Below are positions 20,852 to 24,385 of a stretch of 64,000 nucleotides of DNA, one piece after another. Position numbers and translations under genes: made by a program. This stretch comes from Conexibacter woesei Iso977N (lineage in GTDB: Bacteria; Actinomycetota; Thermoleophilia; Solirubrobacterales; Solirubrobacteraceae), in NCBI RefSeq assembly GCF_000424625.1, contig NZ_AUKG01000003.1:62001-126000 (forward strand), given 5' to 3'. The notes beneath the pieces are model-generated. The model worked only from the letters and a program-made list of their open reading frames with translations, made no database searches and was not told the origin of the DNA. Position 1 is the stretch's first letter, and every line of letters begins with the position of its first letter.

Positions 20852-22441
20852 ATGGGTCGCTACGAAGAGCTGCGTGAGTCGCATACCTGGGATGTCCCCG
20901 AGCGCTACAACATCGCCGAGGACGTCTGCGACAAGCATCCGCGAGACAAGCTGGCGATGGTGTGGGAGCGGTTCGATGGGGTGCGGCGGGATCTGACGTG
21001 GGGTGAGCTGCAGGATCTGAGCAACCAGGCCGCGCATGTCCTCGGGCAACATGGTGTTGATCCCGGGGAGCGGGTGGCGGTCGTGCTGCCGCCGACGCCG
21101 GAGACCGCGGCGGTGTTCTTCGGCGCGTGGAAGCGCGGGGCGATCCTGCTGTCGATGTCGGTGCTCTACGGCGACGACGGGATCGCTCATCGCCTCAACG
21201 ACTCGCGCCCGCGCGTGCTGGTCACCAACCAGGCCAACGCGCACCGGTTCCGCGCGCACGTGGGGGAGACGGTCGGCGAGCTGCTGGTCCTCGACGAGGA
21301 CGGCGAGGGCTCGCTGCTCGAGGGCGCGCCGACCGACATGGTGTCCTACGACACGTCCGCCGACGACCCGGCGCAGTTGTACTACACCTCGGGAACGACC
21401 GGGCTGGCGAAGGGCATCGTCCACGCGCACCGCTACCTGCTGGCGCACGAGGAGTTCACCTACTGCCACGAGGTCCAGGACGGCGAGCGCTTCCACGGCA
21501 TGGGCGAGTGGGCGTGGGCGGCGGGCATCGCGCCGCTGCTCGGCCCGTGGCGGCTGGGCGCGGTCCAGGTCGTCATCCAGCGCGAGGGCGGGTTCGACCC
21601 GGTCCAGCAGCTCGACTTCCTGTCGCGCCACAGGGTCACCAACGTCTTCACGACCCCGACCGCGATGCGCTCGATGATGGCGATCGAGGACGCGGGCAGG
21701 AGGTACCCGTGCGAGTTCCGGCGCGTGTGCTCCGCGGGCGAGCCGCTGAACCCGGAGGCGATCCGCTGGTTCCGCGACCAGTACGGCCTGACCGTGCTCG
21801 ACTACTACGGGTTGACCGAGTCCTACCCCTTGGTCGCCAACTACCCGTGGCAGGAGGTGCGCGAGGGGTCGATGGGGCTGCCGATGCCGGGCTGGGACGT
21901 CCGGATCCTCGACGAGGACGAGCGCGAGGTCGCCCGCGGCGAGCGCGGCGAGATCTGCCTGCGGGCGCGCAGCAACCCGCACTACCCGCTCGGCTACTGG
22001 AACAACGACGAGGCCGCGGCCGAGACCTTCGGCGGCGACTGGTTCCACACCAAGGACGCCGCGACCCAGGACGAGGACGGCTACGTCTGGTACGCGGGCC
22101 GCGCCGACGACGTCATCATCGCCGCCGGCTACCGGATCGGCCCGTTCGAGGTCGAGTCCGCCTGCATCGAGCACCCCGCCGTGCGCGAGGCGGCCGCCGT
22201 CGCCTCGCCCGACGAGCGCCGCGGCTCGGTCGTCAAGGCCTTCGTCGTGCTCGCCGAGGGCCACGAGCCGAGCGACGCCCTCGCCGACGAGATCAAGGCC
22301 TTCGTCCGCGACCGCCTGTCGGCCTACGCCTACCCGCGCCGCGTCGAGTTCGTCACCGACCTGCCCAAGACGCTGACGGGCAAGATCCGCCGCATCGAGC
22401 TGCGCGAGAGGGAAGCCGAGGCCGCGCGCGCGGGCTCCTAG
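20852..22441 (+). CDS. AMP-forming acyl-CoA synthetase, medium-chain/benzoate-ligase-like
   Basis: 529 residues. Adenylation motif YYTSGTTGLAKGIVHAHR, DYYGLTESYPLVANYPW and C-terminal motif LPKTLTGKIRRIELR with the catalytic, potentially acetylated Lys. It lacks the extra N-terminal domain of Acs, and the short form resembles medium-chain or aryl acyl-CoA ligases. TAACGT lies 6 nt before the ATG. Its TAG stop shares CTAG (22438-22441) with the convergent epimerase gene. Confidence 0.88.
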   Translation: MGRYEELRESHTWDVPERYNIAEDVCDKHPRDKLAMVWERFDGVRRDLTWGELQDLSNQAAHVLGQHGVDPGERVAVVLPPTPETAAVFFGAWKRGAILLSMSVLYGDDGIAHRLNDSRPRVLVTNQANAHRFRAHVGETVGELLVLDEDGEGSLLEGAPTDMVSYDTSADDPAQLYYTSGTTGLAKGIVHAHRYLLAHEEFTYCHEVQDGERFHGMGEWAWAAGIAPLLGPWRLGAVQVVIQREGGFDPVQQLDFLSRHRVTNVFTTPTAMRSMMAIEDAGRRYPCEFRRVCSAGEPLNPEAIRWFRDQYGLTVLDYYGLTESYPLVANYPWQEVREGSMGLPMPGWDVRILDEDEREVARGERGEICLRARSNPHYPLGYWNNDEAAAETFGGDWFHTKDAATQDEDGYVWYAGRADDVIIAAGYRIGPFEVESACIEHPAVREAAAVASPDERRGSVVKAFVVLAEGHEPSDALADEIKAFVRDRLSAYAYPRRVEFVTDLPKTLTGKIRRIELREREAEAARAGS

Positions 22442-23388
22442 AGCCCGTGGACGAAGCCCTCGCGCCAGGTCGGCCACTGCGGCGTCCAGCCGAGCGTGCG
22501 CTTGGCCTTCGCGTTCGACGCGCCGCGGGACTCGGTCATCATCATGACCGGCGCCTCGCCCGCCGCGAGGCGGCCGAGCCAGACCGGGACGTGGCGCGGG
22601 GGCTTGGCGCCGACGGCGGCGCTCAGCGCCGGGAGCCACTCGGCGCTCGGCGCCGGGTCGTCGTCGACGATCTGGAAGATCCCGGTCGGGCCGCCCGGCT
22701 CCAGCGCGGCGAGCACCGCGCCCGCGGCGTCGTCGATGTGGGTGAACGACCACAGCCCGCCGCCCGCGCCGACGACCGGGAACTTGCGCCTGCGGATCAG
22801 CTCGGTGACCTCGCCGCCGTCGCGCGCGAGCCCCGTGCCCGGACCGTAGAACCCGCCGTAGCGCAGCACGACGCCCTCGATCCCGGCCGGCGCACCCGTC
22901 ACCGAGTCCTCCAACGCGCGGATCGCGGCGAGCGACTGCCGCATCGGCGCGGGCGGCGCCGGGTCCAGCGGCGCGTCCTCGCCCTTGACCGCGCCGCCCT
23001 CGCGCGCGAACGGCCAGCCTGTGAAGGACTGCGCGATGACACGCCGGACGCCGCTCGCGGCGGCCGCGTCGAGCAGGTTGCGCGTCCCCTCGGTCCGCAG
23101 CCGGTTGGTCTGGGCGAACATGCGGTCGAAGTGCCGCATGTCCGGGACGGCGGCGCCCAGCGCCGTCGCCTGGTGGACGATCACGTCCGGCTCCGCGCCC
23201 GCCACGGCGCCCAGCACGGCGTCGCGGTCGAGCACGTCGACCACGACCGGCAGCGCGCCCTGCGCCCGTAGCGCGCCGGCCTTCGACGGCGACGTCGTCG
23301 TGGCCACGACCTCGTGGCCCTGCTCGAGCAGCATCGGCACCAACCGCCCGCCGACCGCTCCGGTTGCTCCTGCGATGAAGATGATCAT
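22438..23388 (-). CDS. NAD(P)-dependent epimerase/dehydratase, likely ECF41 target
   Basis: 316 residues. The Rossmann dinucleotide motif is IFIAGATGAVGGRLVP at the N-terminus; an extended-SDR core follows with YGGFYGPGTGL. Oxidoreductases and epimerases of this kind are the classical neighbours and targets of ECF41 sigma factors. An ECF41-type promoter (TGTCACG-N16-CGTC on the minus strand, 23425 to 23399) ends 10 nt before this ATG, which would give an essentially leaderless transcript. Substrate unknown. Confidence 0.87.
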   Translation of the reverse strand: MIIFIAGATGAVGGRLVPMLLEQGHEVVATTTSPSKAGALRAQGALPVVVDVLDRDAVLGAVAGAEPDVIVHQATALGAAVPDMRHFDRMFAQTNRLRTEGTRNLLDAAAASGVRRVIAQSFTGWPFAREGGAVKGEDAPLDPAPPAPMRQSLAAIRALEDSVTGAPAGIEGVVLRYGGFYGPGTGLARDGGEVTELIRRRKFPVVGAGGGLWSFTHIDDAAGAVLAALEPGGPTGIFQIVDDDPAPSAEWLPALSAAVGAKPPRHVPVWLGRLAAGEAPVMMMTESRGASNAKAKRTLGWTPQWPTWREGFVHGL

Positions 23389-23398
23389 GGCGCCCTGA

Positions 23399-23452
23399 GA
23401 CGAAACAGCCGTTGCGGGCGTGACATGTCACATCGAGGTGGGCAGGATCGTC
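23399..23452. promoter_or_regulatory. Bidirectional ECF41-type promoter pair
   Basis: Two promoters face outward from a shared palindrome. Plus strand: TGTCACA (23426-23432), 16 nt, CGTC (23449-23452). Minus strand: TGTCACG (23425-23419), 16 nt, CGTC (23402-23399). Both match the published ECF41 consensus TGTCACA-N16-CGTC. The -35 elements abut, forming the perfect palindrome GTGACATGTCAC (23420-23431). Start codons follow the -10 elements by 9 and 10 nt, so both transcripts should begin at or next to the ATG. Confidence 0.8.
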
Positions 23453-23461
23453 TCCGAGCCC

Positions 23462-24385
23462 ATGCCGACCGAATCCGCCATGCTCACCGACCTCCGGCCG
23501 CTGGTGTTCTCGATCGCCTACCGGATGACCGGCAGCGTCGCCGAGGCGGAGGACATCGCGCAGGAGACGCTGCTGCGCGCGCACCGCGAGCTGGCGGACG
23601 GCACGCAGATCGAGTCGCCCAAGGCCTACATGACGGCGATCGCGACGCGGCTGGCGATCGACCACCTGCGCAGCGCGCGCGTGCGGCGCGAGGCCTACGT
23701 CGGGCCGTGGCTGCCCGAGCCGCTGCTGACGGCCGGCGGCGCGGACCCGCGCGTCGACCTGCCGCGCGACGCCGAGCTGGCCGACGACCTCTCGCTGGCG
23801 TTCCTGTTGGTGTTGGAACGCCTGACGCCGGTCGAGCGCGCGGTGTTCCTGCTGCGCGAGGCGTTCGACTACACCTTCGCGGAGATCGCCGAGGTGGTGG
23901 ACAAGACCCCGGACAACTGCCGCCAGATCGCCGCCCGCGCGCGCCGCCACGTGATCACCGAGAAGCCGCGCTTCGAGCCCTCGCGCGCGGCGCGCGAGTC
24001 GCTGGCCAGGCGCTTCCTGACCGCAGCCCAAGAGGGCGACATGGAGGGGTTGGTCGCGATGCTCGCCGACGACGCCGTGTTCACCGGCGACGGCGGCGGC
24101 GTCGCCAACGCGTTCAGGGTGCCGATCGTCGGCGGCGACCGCGTCGCGCGGGCGCTGGCCGGGATCTTCCGGGCCGCCGGGAAGATCGCGGGCGTGACCG
24201 TCGAGTTGGCCGAGGTCAACGGCCAGCCGGGGTGGATCGCGCGCGAGGCCGACGGCGCGATCGTCGTCGTCATGGCGCTCGACATCCTCGACGACCAGGT
24301 GCTCGGCGTCCGCTCGGTGGTCAACCCGGACAAGTTGACCCACCTCGGGCGCACGAGCGACCTGGCGCGCAGGCGCGAGCGCTAG
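23462..24385 (+). CDS. sigJ: ECF41-family RNA polymerase sigma factor, SigJ-like
   Basis: 307 residues from ATG 23462. Region 2 is LRPLVFSIAYRMTGSVAEAE, region 4 is LTPVERAVFLLREAFDYTFA; between them WLPEPLL is typical of ECF41. The C-terminal SnoaL-like domain has DGGG and the conserved NPDKL motif and in ECF41 proteins regulates activity in place of an anti-sigma factor. A longer frame from 23420 would put the -35 element inside the gene, so it is rejected. The divergent epimerase is the expected target, and the promoter facing this gene predicts autoregulation. Stop shares CTAG with the next gene. Confidence 0.9.
   Translation: MPTESAMLTDLRPLVFSIAYRMTGSVAEAEDIAQETLLRAHRELADGTQIESPKAYMTAIATRLAIDHLRSARVRREAYVGPWLPEPLLTAGGADPRVDLPRDAELADDLSLAFLLVLERLTPVERAVFLLREAFDYTFAEIAEVVDKTPDNCRQIAARARRHVITEKPRFEPSRAARESLARRFLTAAQEGDMEGLVAMLADDAVFTGDGGGVANAFRVPIVGGDRVARALAGIFRAAGKIAGVTVELAEVNGQPGWIAREADGAIVVVMALDILDDQVLGVRSVVNPDKLTHLGRTSDLARRRER

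Follow-up and report, generated by a model that had tools for sequence, protein, structure and literature searches.

A 64,000-nucleotide stretch of Conexibacter woesei Iso977N DNA, hereafter the window, holds a SigJ-like ECF41 sigma factor gene and an epimerase gene that diverge from two ECF41-type promoters whose -35 elements touch. Our preferred reading of this locus, which we consider probable and which is also the simplest, is a self-contained, self-amplifying divergon in which the ECF41 holoenzyme would drive both genes through leaderless transcripts, a SnoaL-like domain of the sigma factor would presumably gate its activity, and a single holoenzyme would most likely be bound at a time. 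As a minimal circuit, with two genes, 73 bp between their start codons and a single protein that presumably acts in both directions, the window provides a clean test case: can two holoenzymes, placed back to back, both initiate when their -35 elements touch?

Promoters and genes of the divergon

The epimerase promoter, TGTCACG-N16-CGTC, lies on the minus strand at 23399-23425 (-35 element at 23419-23425, -10 element at 23399-23402), and the promoter of the ECF41 gene, TGTCACA-N16-CGTC, lies on the plus strand at 23426-23452 (-35 element at 23426-23432, -10 element at 23449-23452). Reading of the sequence together with pattern matching gives a gap of 0 bp between the two -35 elements, and both motifs, their positions and their abutment agree to the base with the original prediction. 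From the two abutting -35 hexamers is built a perfect 12-bp palindrome, GTGACATGTCAC, at 23420-23431. The original prediction had spoken of a palindrome shared by the promoters and of one site serving both; the palindrome is present and the promoters do abut, but they overlap nowhere and each contributes one half, so this wording is inexact. The ATG of the epimerase gene (23388, minus strand) lies 10 nt past its -10 CGTC and that of the ECF41 gene (23462, plus strand) 9 nt past its own, the distances that had been claimed, and 73 bp separate one ATG from the other.

ECF41 factors drive a TGTCACA-n16-CGTC motif, with a spacer of 16 ± 1 bp, found upstream of COE genes, ECF genes or both, and COE genes are the sole targets detected for them (PMC3426412). 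The promoter on the ECF41 side of the window is identical to that published consensus, and the epimerase-side promoter has G at position 7, where the consensus has A; this match to the consensus form bears out the assignment of both promoters to the ECF41 type. An extended -10 element, GGCYR-like by eye, was considered and dropped: no column from 8 to 23 exceeds 0.31 bits across 80 dissimilar promoters (0.39 in 34 ECF-side promoters).

The plus-strand gene (23462-24385; 307 aa) encodes a SigJ-like ECF41 sigma factor, as had been proposed, with scores above the cut-offs of both TIGR02957 (340.6 bits against 323.25, residues 9-295) and NF007214 (323.6 against 271). Its product carries the sigma2 and sigma4 regions found in ECF factors (PF04542, 1.3e-16; PF08281, 8.9e-12), and a SnoaL-like C-terminal extension (PF12680, 28.6 bits, cut-off 27). 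DGGG and NPDKL occur in its translation and may belong to the three conserved motifs of the ECF41 extension. Its best solved relative is SigJ of Mycobacterium tuberculosis (PDB 5xe7; E 1.1e-45, residues 10-294), a likeness in sequence only. The sigma2-sigma4 linker contains WLPEP (VGPWLPEPLL), a linker motif called characteristic of ECF41, a class whose C-terminal extension measures about 100 aa (PMC3426412). The sigma factor might instead start at a second in-frame ATG, 27 nt downstream of the -10 element.

The minus-strand gene (22438-23388), the COE partner, encodes an epimerase-type NAD(P)-dependent SDR (PF01370, 1.6e-23), which confirms that the sigma factor gene faces an epimerase gene. 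Because its best NCBIfam model, NF058621, scores below cut-off (264.9 against 400), we assign it no finer function than that. Its nucleotide-binding loop, GATGAVG, starts at residue 7, and the gene can therefore hardly start further in, making its start secure. The outer neighbours, genes for a CoA ligase and an acid phosphatase, face inward, and each shares 4 bp with the divergon in a tail-to-tail overlap (22438-22441 and 24382-24385), so that the divergon forms a closed two-gene unit; these flanking genes include no adjacent anti-sigma gene.

By itself the single motif is weak against chance, and the composite of two divergent motifs is strong. The window has two matches to the single motif, against a mean of 0.42 in shuffled sequence and two or more in 5 of 100 shuffles. 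The composite, searched at gaps of 0-30 bp, was matched in 50 of 1788 genome entries (8/396, 13/397, 1/299, 22/297, 3/201 and 3/198 genomes by sample, the sole match in the sample of 299 being the centre genome itself); at least 13 of these 50 entries are the window's genome or had been found previously, and one or more genomes entered the count twice. A reversed control over the same gaps gave no match among the rows listed, and at gaps of 31-61 bp the 50 known genomes gave 3 composite matches against 1 control match. The start of an ECF41 homologue lies within 300 bp in 65 of the first 80 of at least 120 composite loci.

Conservation of the layout and predicted leaderless starts

Within the window's family, we surveyed 146 genomes for ECF41 matches at E ≤ 1e-60, scoring up to 15 candidates per genome. 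Matches were present in 50 genomes and numbered 70 among the candidates scored; of these 70 loci, all scanned by script, 14 have an epimerase gene adjacent to the sigma factor gene and divergent from it. These 14 exclude L084/L085, where the epimerase match is about 1 kb off, and L040, which has both promoters and no epimerase match; the epimerase match of L086 is weak (30%). Upstream of the epimerase gene, the form TGTCACN-N15..17-[CT]GT[CT] is found in 12 of the 14 adjacent divergent loci and in 16 of 16 codirectional family loci. Both promoters are present in four divergent loci, namely the window and G005 (gap 0), G006 (gap 10) and G131 (gap 19). Because another eight carry the epimerase promoter only and two carry neither, we would not regard self-activation as universal among divergent ECF41/epimerase loci.

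Two further arrangements stood out among the family loci. In the divergent ECF41/epimerase pairs L029, L030, L035, L041, L046, L048, L049 and L052, the -35 element of the epimerase promoter is found near or within the beginning of the ECF41 gene, before which the script scan found no strict-form promoter. In L040 (genome G108), an ECF41 gene is preceded by back-to-back ECF41-type promoters separated by 26 bp.

A parallel comes from the congener G005, whose intergenic region is 73 bp long, as in the window, with 65 of 73 bases identical; across both genes, 216 of 309 four-fold sites are identical between the two. All 27 bases of the epimerase promoter are the same in G005, as is the distance from the -10 element to the ECF41 ATG. 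By this sequence comparison, the divergon layout is conserved in two species of the genus. Abutment, judged in the same way, is not required, because the same two promoters lie 10 bp apart in the congener G006 and 19 bp apart in G131. On the epimerase side of the intergenic region, the stretch from 23389 through the spacer and the palindrome to 23431 is identical at 42 of 43 positions between the window and G005 (L021), the sigma-side spacer is variable, and the epimerases are 70% identical; an extra element may perhaps reside in this stretch.

Leaderless translation occurs in actinobacteria, and the distance at which ECF promoters usually initiate served as background for reading the spacing between promoters and start codons. 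Among family epimerase promoters, the distance from the -10 element to the ATG falls into two classes, 8-11 nt and 30-50 nt, with none between. The short class comprises eight divergent loci and the codirectional L036 at 8 nt, the window and G005 at 10 nt, and L086, the weak match, at 11 nt. On the ECF side, among the loci listed, the first in-frame start past the -10 element lies at 8-10 nt in 23 of 81 clusters, with the remainder at 6-7 nt (3), 11-13 nt (5), 14-22 nt (2) and 23 nt or more (48). An SD-like site precedes 2 of the 23 starts at 8-10 nt, as against 33 of the 48 at 23 nt or more. The share at 8-10 nt varies with the level of collapse (34/105, 23/81 and 14/69 clusters; 38/136 rows uncollapsed), and in the uncollapsed rows SD-like sites precede 5 of 47 starts at 6-13 nt versus 53 of 75 at 18 nt or more. 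The cluster counts pass over starts less than 6 nt from the -10 element, where the first in-frame start lies in 13 of 136 rows; the 6-nt limit is an assumption about how early +1 can fall, and it is consistent with the sharp peak and with SD-like sites being lost.

We conclude that predicted leaderless starts form a real class behind ECF41 promoters. Both genes of the window look leaderless as well, given their distances, a two-peaked distribution of leader lengths in whose short class SD-like sites are lost, and the conservation of the arrangement in G005, and this part of the original prediction is upheld as a prediction. Counting against it, the ECF41 leaders mapped previously measure 22/23 nt and so are not leaderless (PMC3426412). 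The word leaderless is absent from the main text of that study, which, as far as the part drawn on here goes, treats neither leaderless starts nor the spacing between divergent promoters (PMC3426412). Leaderless starts indicated for many genes behind ECF41 promoters would tie promoter geometry to translation and bear on the annotation of start codons.

Promoter spacing and competing explanations

The wider collection, made up of at least 120 loci from a contig scan together with later samples, gave 174 site rows, which reduce to 103 clusters when gaps are limited to 30 bp and similar flanks with equal gap are collapsed. Some genomes were sampled twice (L210 and L261 are one site), and G005, G006 and G131 appear in the tree without belonging to the 103 clusters. 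The spacing tests exclude L219-L221 (3 rows, gap above 30 bp), and loci with no detectable ECF41 neighbour enter the tests on all loci and stay out of those on loci near an ECF gene. A 0-bp gap is rare among divergent ECF41 promoter clusters, occurring in 2 of 103 among the loci listed, with gaps of 0-2 bp in 4 of 103. The second case of gap 0 comes from two Kutzneria species (L096, L141), in which both starts are of the leaderless type, the sigma factor gene starting 9 nt and its partner 8 nt past the -10 element; the sigma factor is about 35% identical to that of the window, and the N-terminus of the partner, MIL(I/V)TGASGTVG, is by eye an NAD(P)-binding signature. In Kribbella (L128) the gap is 1 bp, and the first start lies at 9 nt for the ECF gene and at 10 nt for the partner, a short ORF.

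Position 7 of the Kutzneria -35 elements is T rather than A, and their palindrome reaches AAAGTGACATGTCACTTT. In Paraburkholderia and Burkholderia (L125, L155, L158, L160, L165 and others) the divergent ECF41 promoters are usually separated by 20 bp, in some cases by 18 or 21 bp. The gap often contains an A/T tract, of which AAAAATATT is one example, and this tract might act as an UP element in both directions.

Short leaders and short gaps go together: the ECF start lies 6-13 nt past the -10 element in 4 of 4 clusters at gaps of 0-2 bp versus 32 of 87 at larger gaps (Fisher p=0.022), and therefore abutment belongs to the most compact form of these promoters. Loci with the ECF start at 6-13 nt also have smaller gaps overall (p=0.003), and gap 0 shows no enrichment over other gaps. 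All three results favour the view that abutment is a mere end point of compaction in a short divergent region and carries no regulatory meaning, an explanation that is compatible with a self-amplifying divergon and that we hold to be a serious possibility, if somewhat short of probable. Against it, the 0-bp, doubly leaderless design is met again in Kutzneria and the 73 bp are kept in G005; drift allows such recurrence and conservation but does not explain them.

A more demanding explanation ascribes the spacing to the DNA helix, a turn of which measures 10.5 bp. Gaps would then be held to whole turns (0, about 10.5 and about 21 bp), allowing a pair of ECF41 holoenzymes to be bound together with their sigma4 domains on opposite faces, the window representing the zero-turn form, and whole-turn spacing would, if real, couple the output of sigma factor and enzyme. 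The ECF41/epimerase gaps in the window's family (0, 0, 10 and 19 bp) fit this scheme, and the 103 clusters show gap peaks at 9-12 and 20-24 bp, 6 clusters at 13-16 bp where 15.9 are expected, and a periodicity at 10.5 bp with R = 0.317 (p<0.001). On ideal B-DNA the thinly filled bins are those that would place both factors on one face, and a statistic for this stayed at p=0.006 and 0.03 under two stricter levels of collapse; that statistic, however, was devised after the histogram had been seen. Clusters found only in the later samples are null (n=28, R=0.07, p=0.87), stricter collapse raises the periodicity p to 0.08 (n=70) and 0.16 (n=45), the best-fit period of the 103 clusters is 11.75 rather than 10.5, differences between sister pairs carry no signal, and L040, where there is no epimerase, has its two promoters 26 bp apart. 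Helical phasing, which had seemed strong on the initial scan, is thus a lead only, not replicated, and we consider it unlikely.

Least probable is that the palindrome serves as the operator of a dimeric regulator, its resemblance to promoters being incidental or secondary. A perfect palindrome, GTGACATGTCAC, between divergent genes does invite this interpretation. The 5.70-Mb genome nevertheless holds a single exact copy, that of the window, so the element is not dispersed; the half sites lie 10 or 19 bp apart in relatives, each keeping its own -10 element at 16-bp spacing, which a fixed dimer disallows; and the sigma factor is the only regulator among the four genes examined. Given the single genomic copy and the half sites that separate in relatives, we rejected the operator.

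Proposed working and known systems

According to the self-amplifying divergon that we favour, RNA polymerase with the SigJ-like ECF41 sigma factor would recognise both promoters, and the two transcripts would begin at or a few bases from the start codons. The sigma factor would activate its own gene, providing positive feedback, together with that of its epimerase partner. Because no anti-sigma gene is adjacent, we presume that the C-terminal SnoaL-like domain gates this activity. The original prediction described the arrangement as a symmetric switch, a term we do not retain: a switch needs opposing inputs, and since one sigma factor would drive both directions, no toggle is implied.

Because the -35 elements touch, each would lie where the upstream contacts of the opposite holoenzyme fall. 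For other ECF factors, RNA polymerase with sigmaE is cited as occupying DNA to -60 and the HrpL holoenzyme reaches beyond -130 (PMC5263251). With such footprints and with touching -35 elements, mutual exclusion of the two holoenzymes is likely by analogy. The likeliest course is that a single holoenzyme would be bound at once, with competition mattering only at high sigma activity, and this competition would fix the ratio of sigma factor to enzyme and cap the feedback rather than act as a toggle.

Divergent ECF41/COE pairs are known to have the promoter on both sides in many cases, and our main additions are the predicted leaderless starts and the recurrence of the design in Kutzneria. ECF41 factors occur in 10 phyla, and their signal has been called unknown (PMC3426412). 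Table 4 of that survey covers 55 divergent loci, with the motif before the ECF gene in 36 and before the COE gene in 41 (Wecke et al. 2012, PMC3426412), and the window resembles its divergent loci of the form <ECF< >COE> in having an ECF41 factor, a COE partner, a two-sided motif and no anti-sigma gene. A single COE target is likewise reported for S. meliloti RpoE9 (PMC6180224).

Two other systems offer partial parallels. At hrpL-hrpJ of Pseudomonas syringae, an ECF sigma factor gene also diverges from a target, and the ECF holoenzyme bound at the target promoter represses the promoter of the sigma factor gene itself (PMC5263251), a precedent that, by analogy, also favours exclusivity in the window. 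Unlike the divergon of the window, which has the same ECF promoter on both sides, hrpL depends on sigma-54 and is switched down by the protein it encodes (PMC5263251). At E. coli bidirectional promoters, RNA polymerase binds near-symmetric DNA in either of two orientations, as it would in the window; there, one binding event blocks the other and competition appears when one side is strongly activated, so by the same token competition in the window would show mainly at high activity (PMC12825309). The E. coli promoters share -10 bases between directions (PMC12825309), whereas the -10 boxes of the window (23399-23402 and 23449-23452) are outermost and have no bases in common, and a bidirectional promoter with a shared -10 was rejected on this ground.

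Beyond the divergon, the ECF41 regulon may extend past the epimerase, given single sites elsewhere in the genome. The whole genome contains 20 sites of the single motif, compared with 10 for a control with shifted spacing and 1 for the reversed motif. Among the 18 sites outside the divergon, 13 have a mechanically called ORF start (at least 90 aa) within 160 nt and 5 have none, a count that is little proof in GC-rich DNA. One of the 18 precedes a second ECF41-like gene in the same genome (L011/L270, C2:1861886-1862769), whose product is about 34% identical to the window's sigma factor and which has its own TGTCACA-N16-CGTC, with candidate starts 25-47 nt past the promoter.
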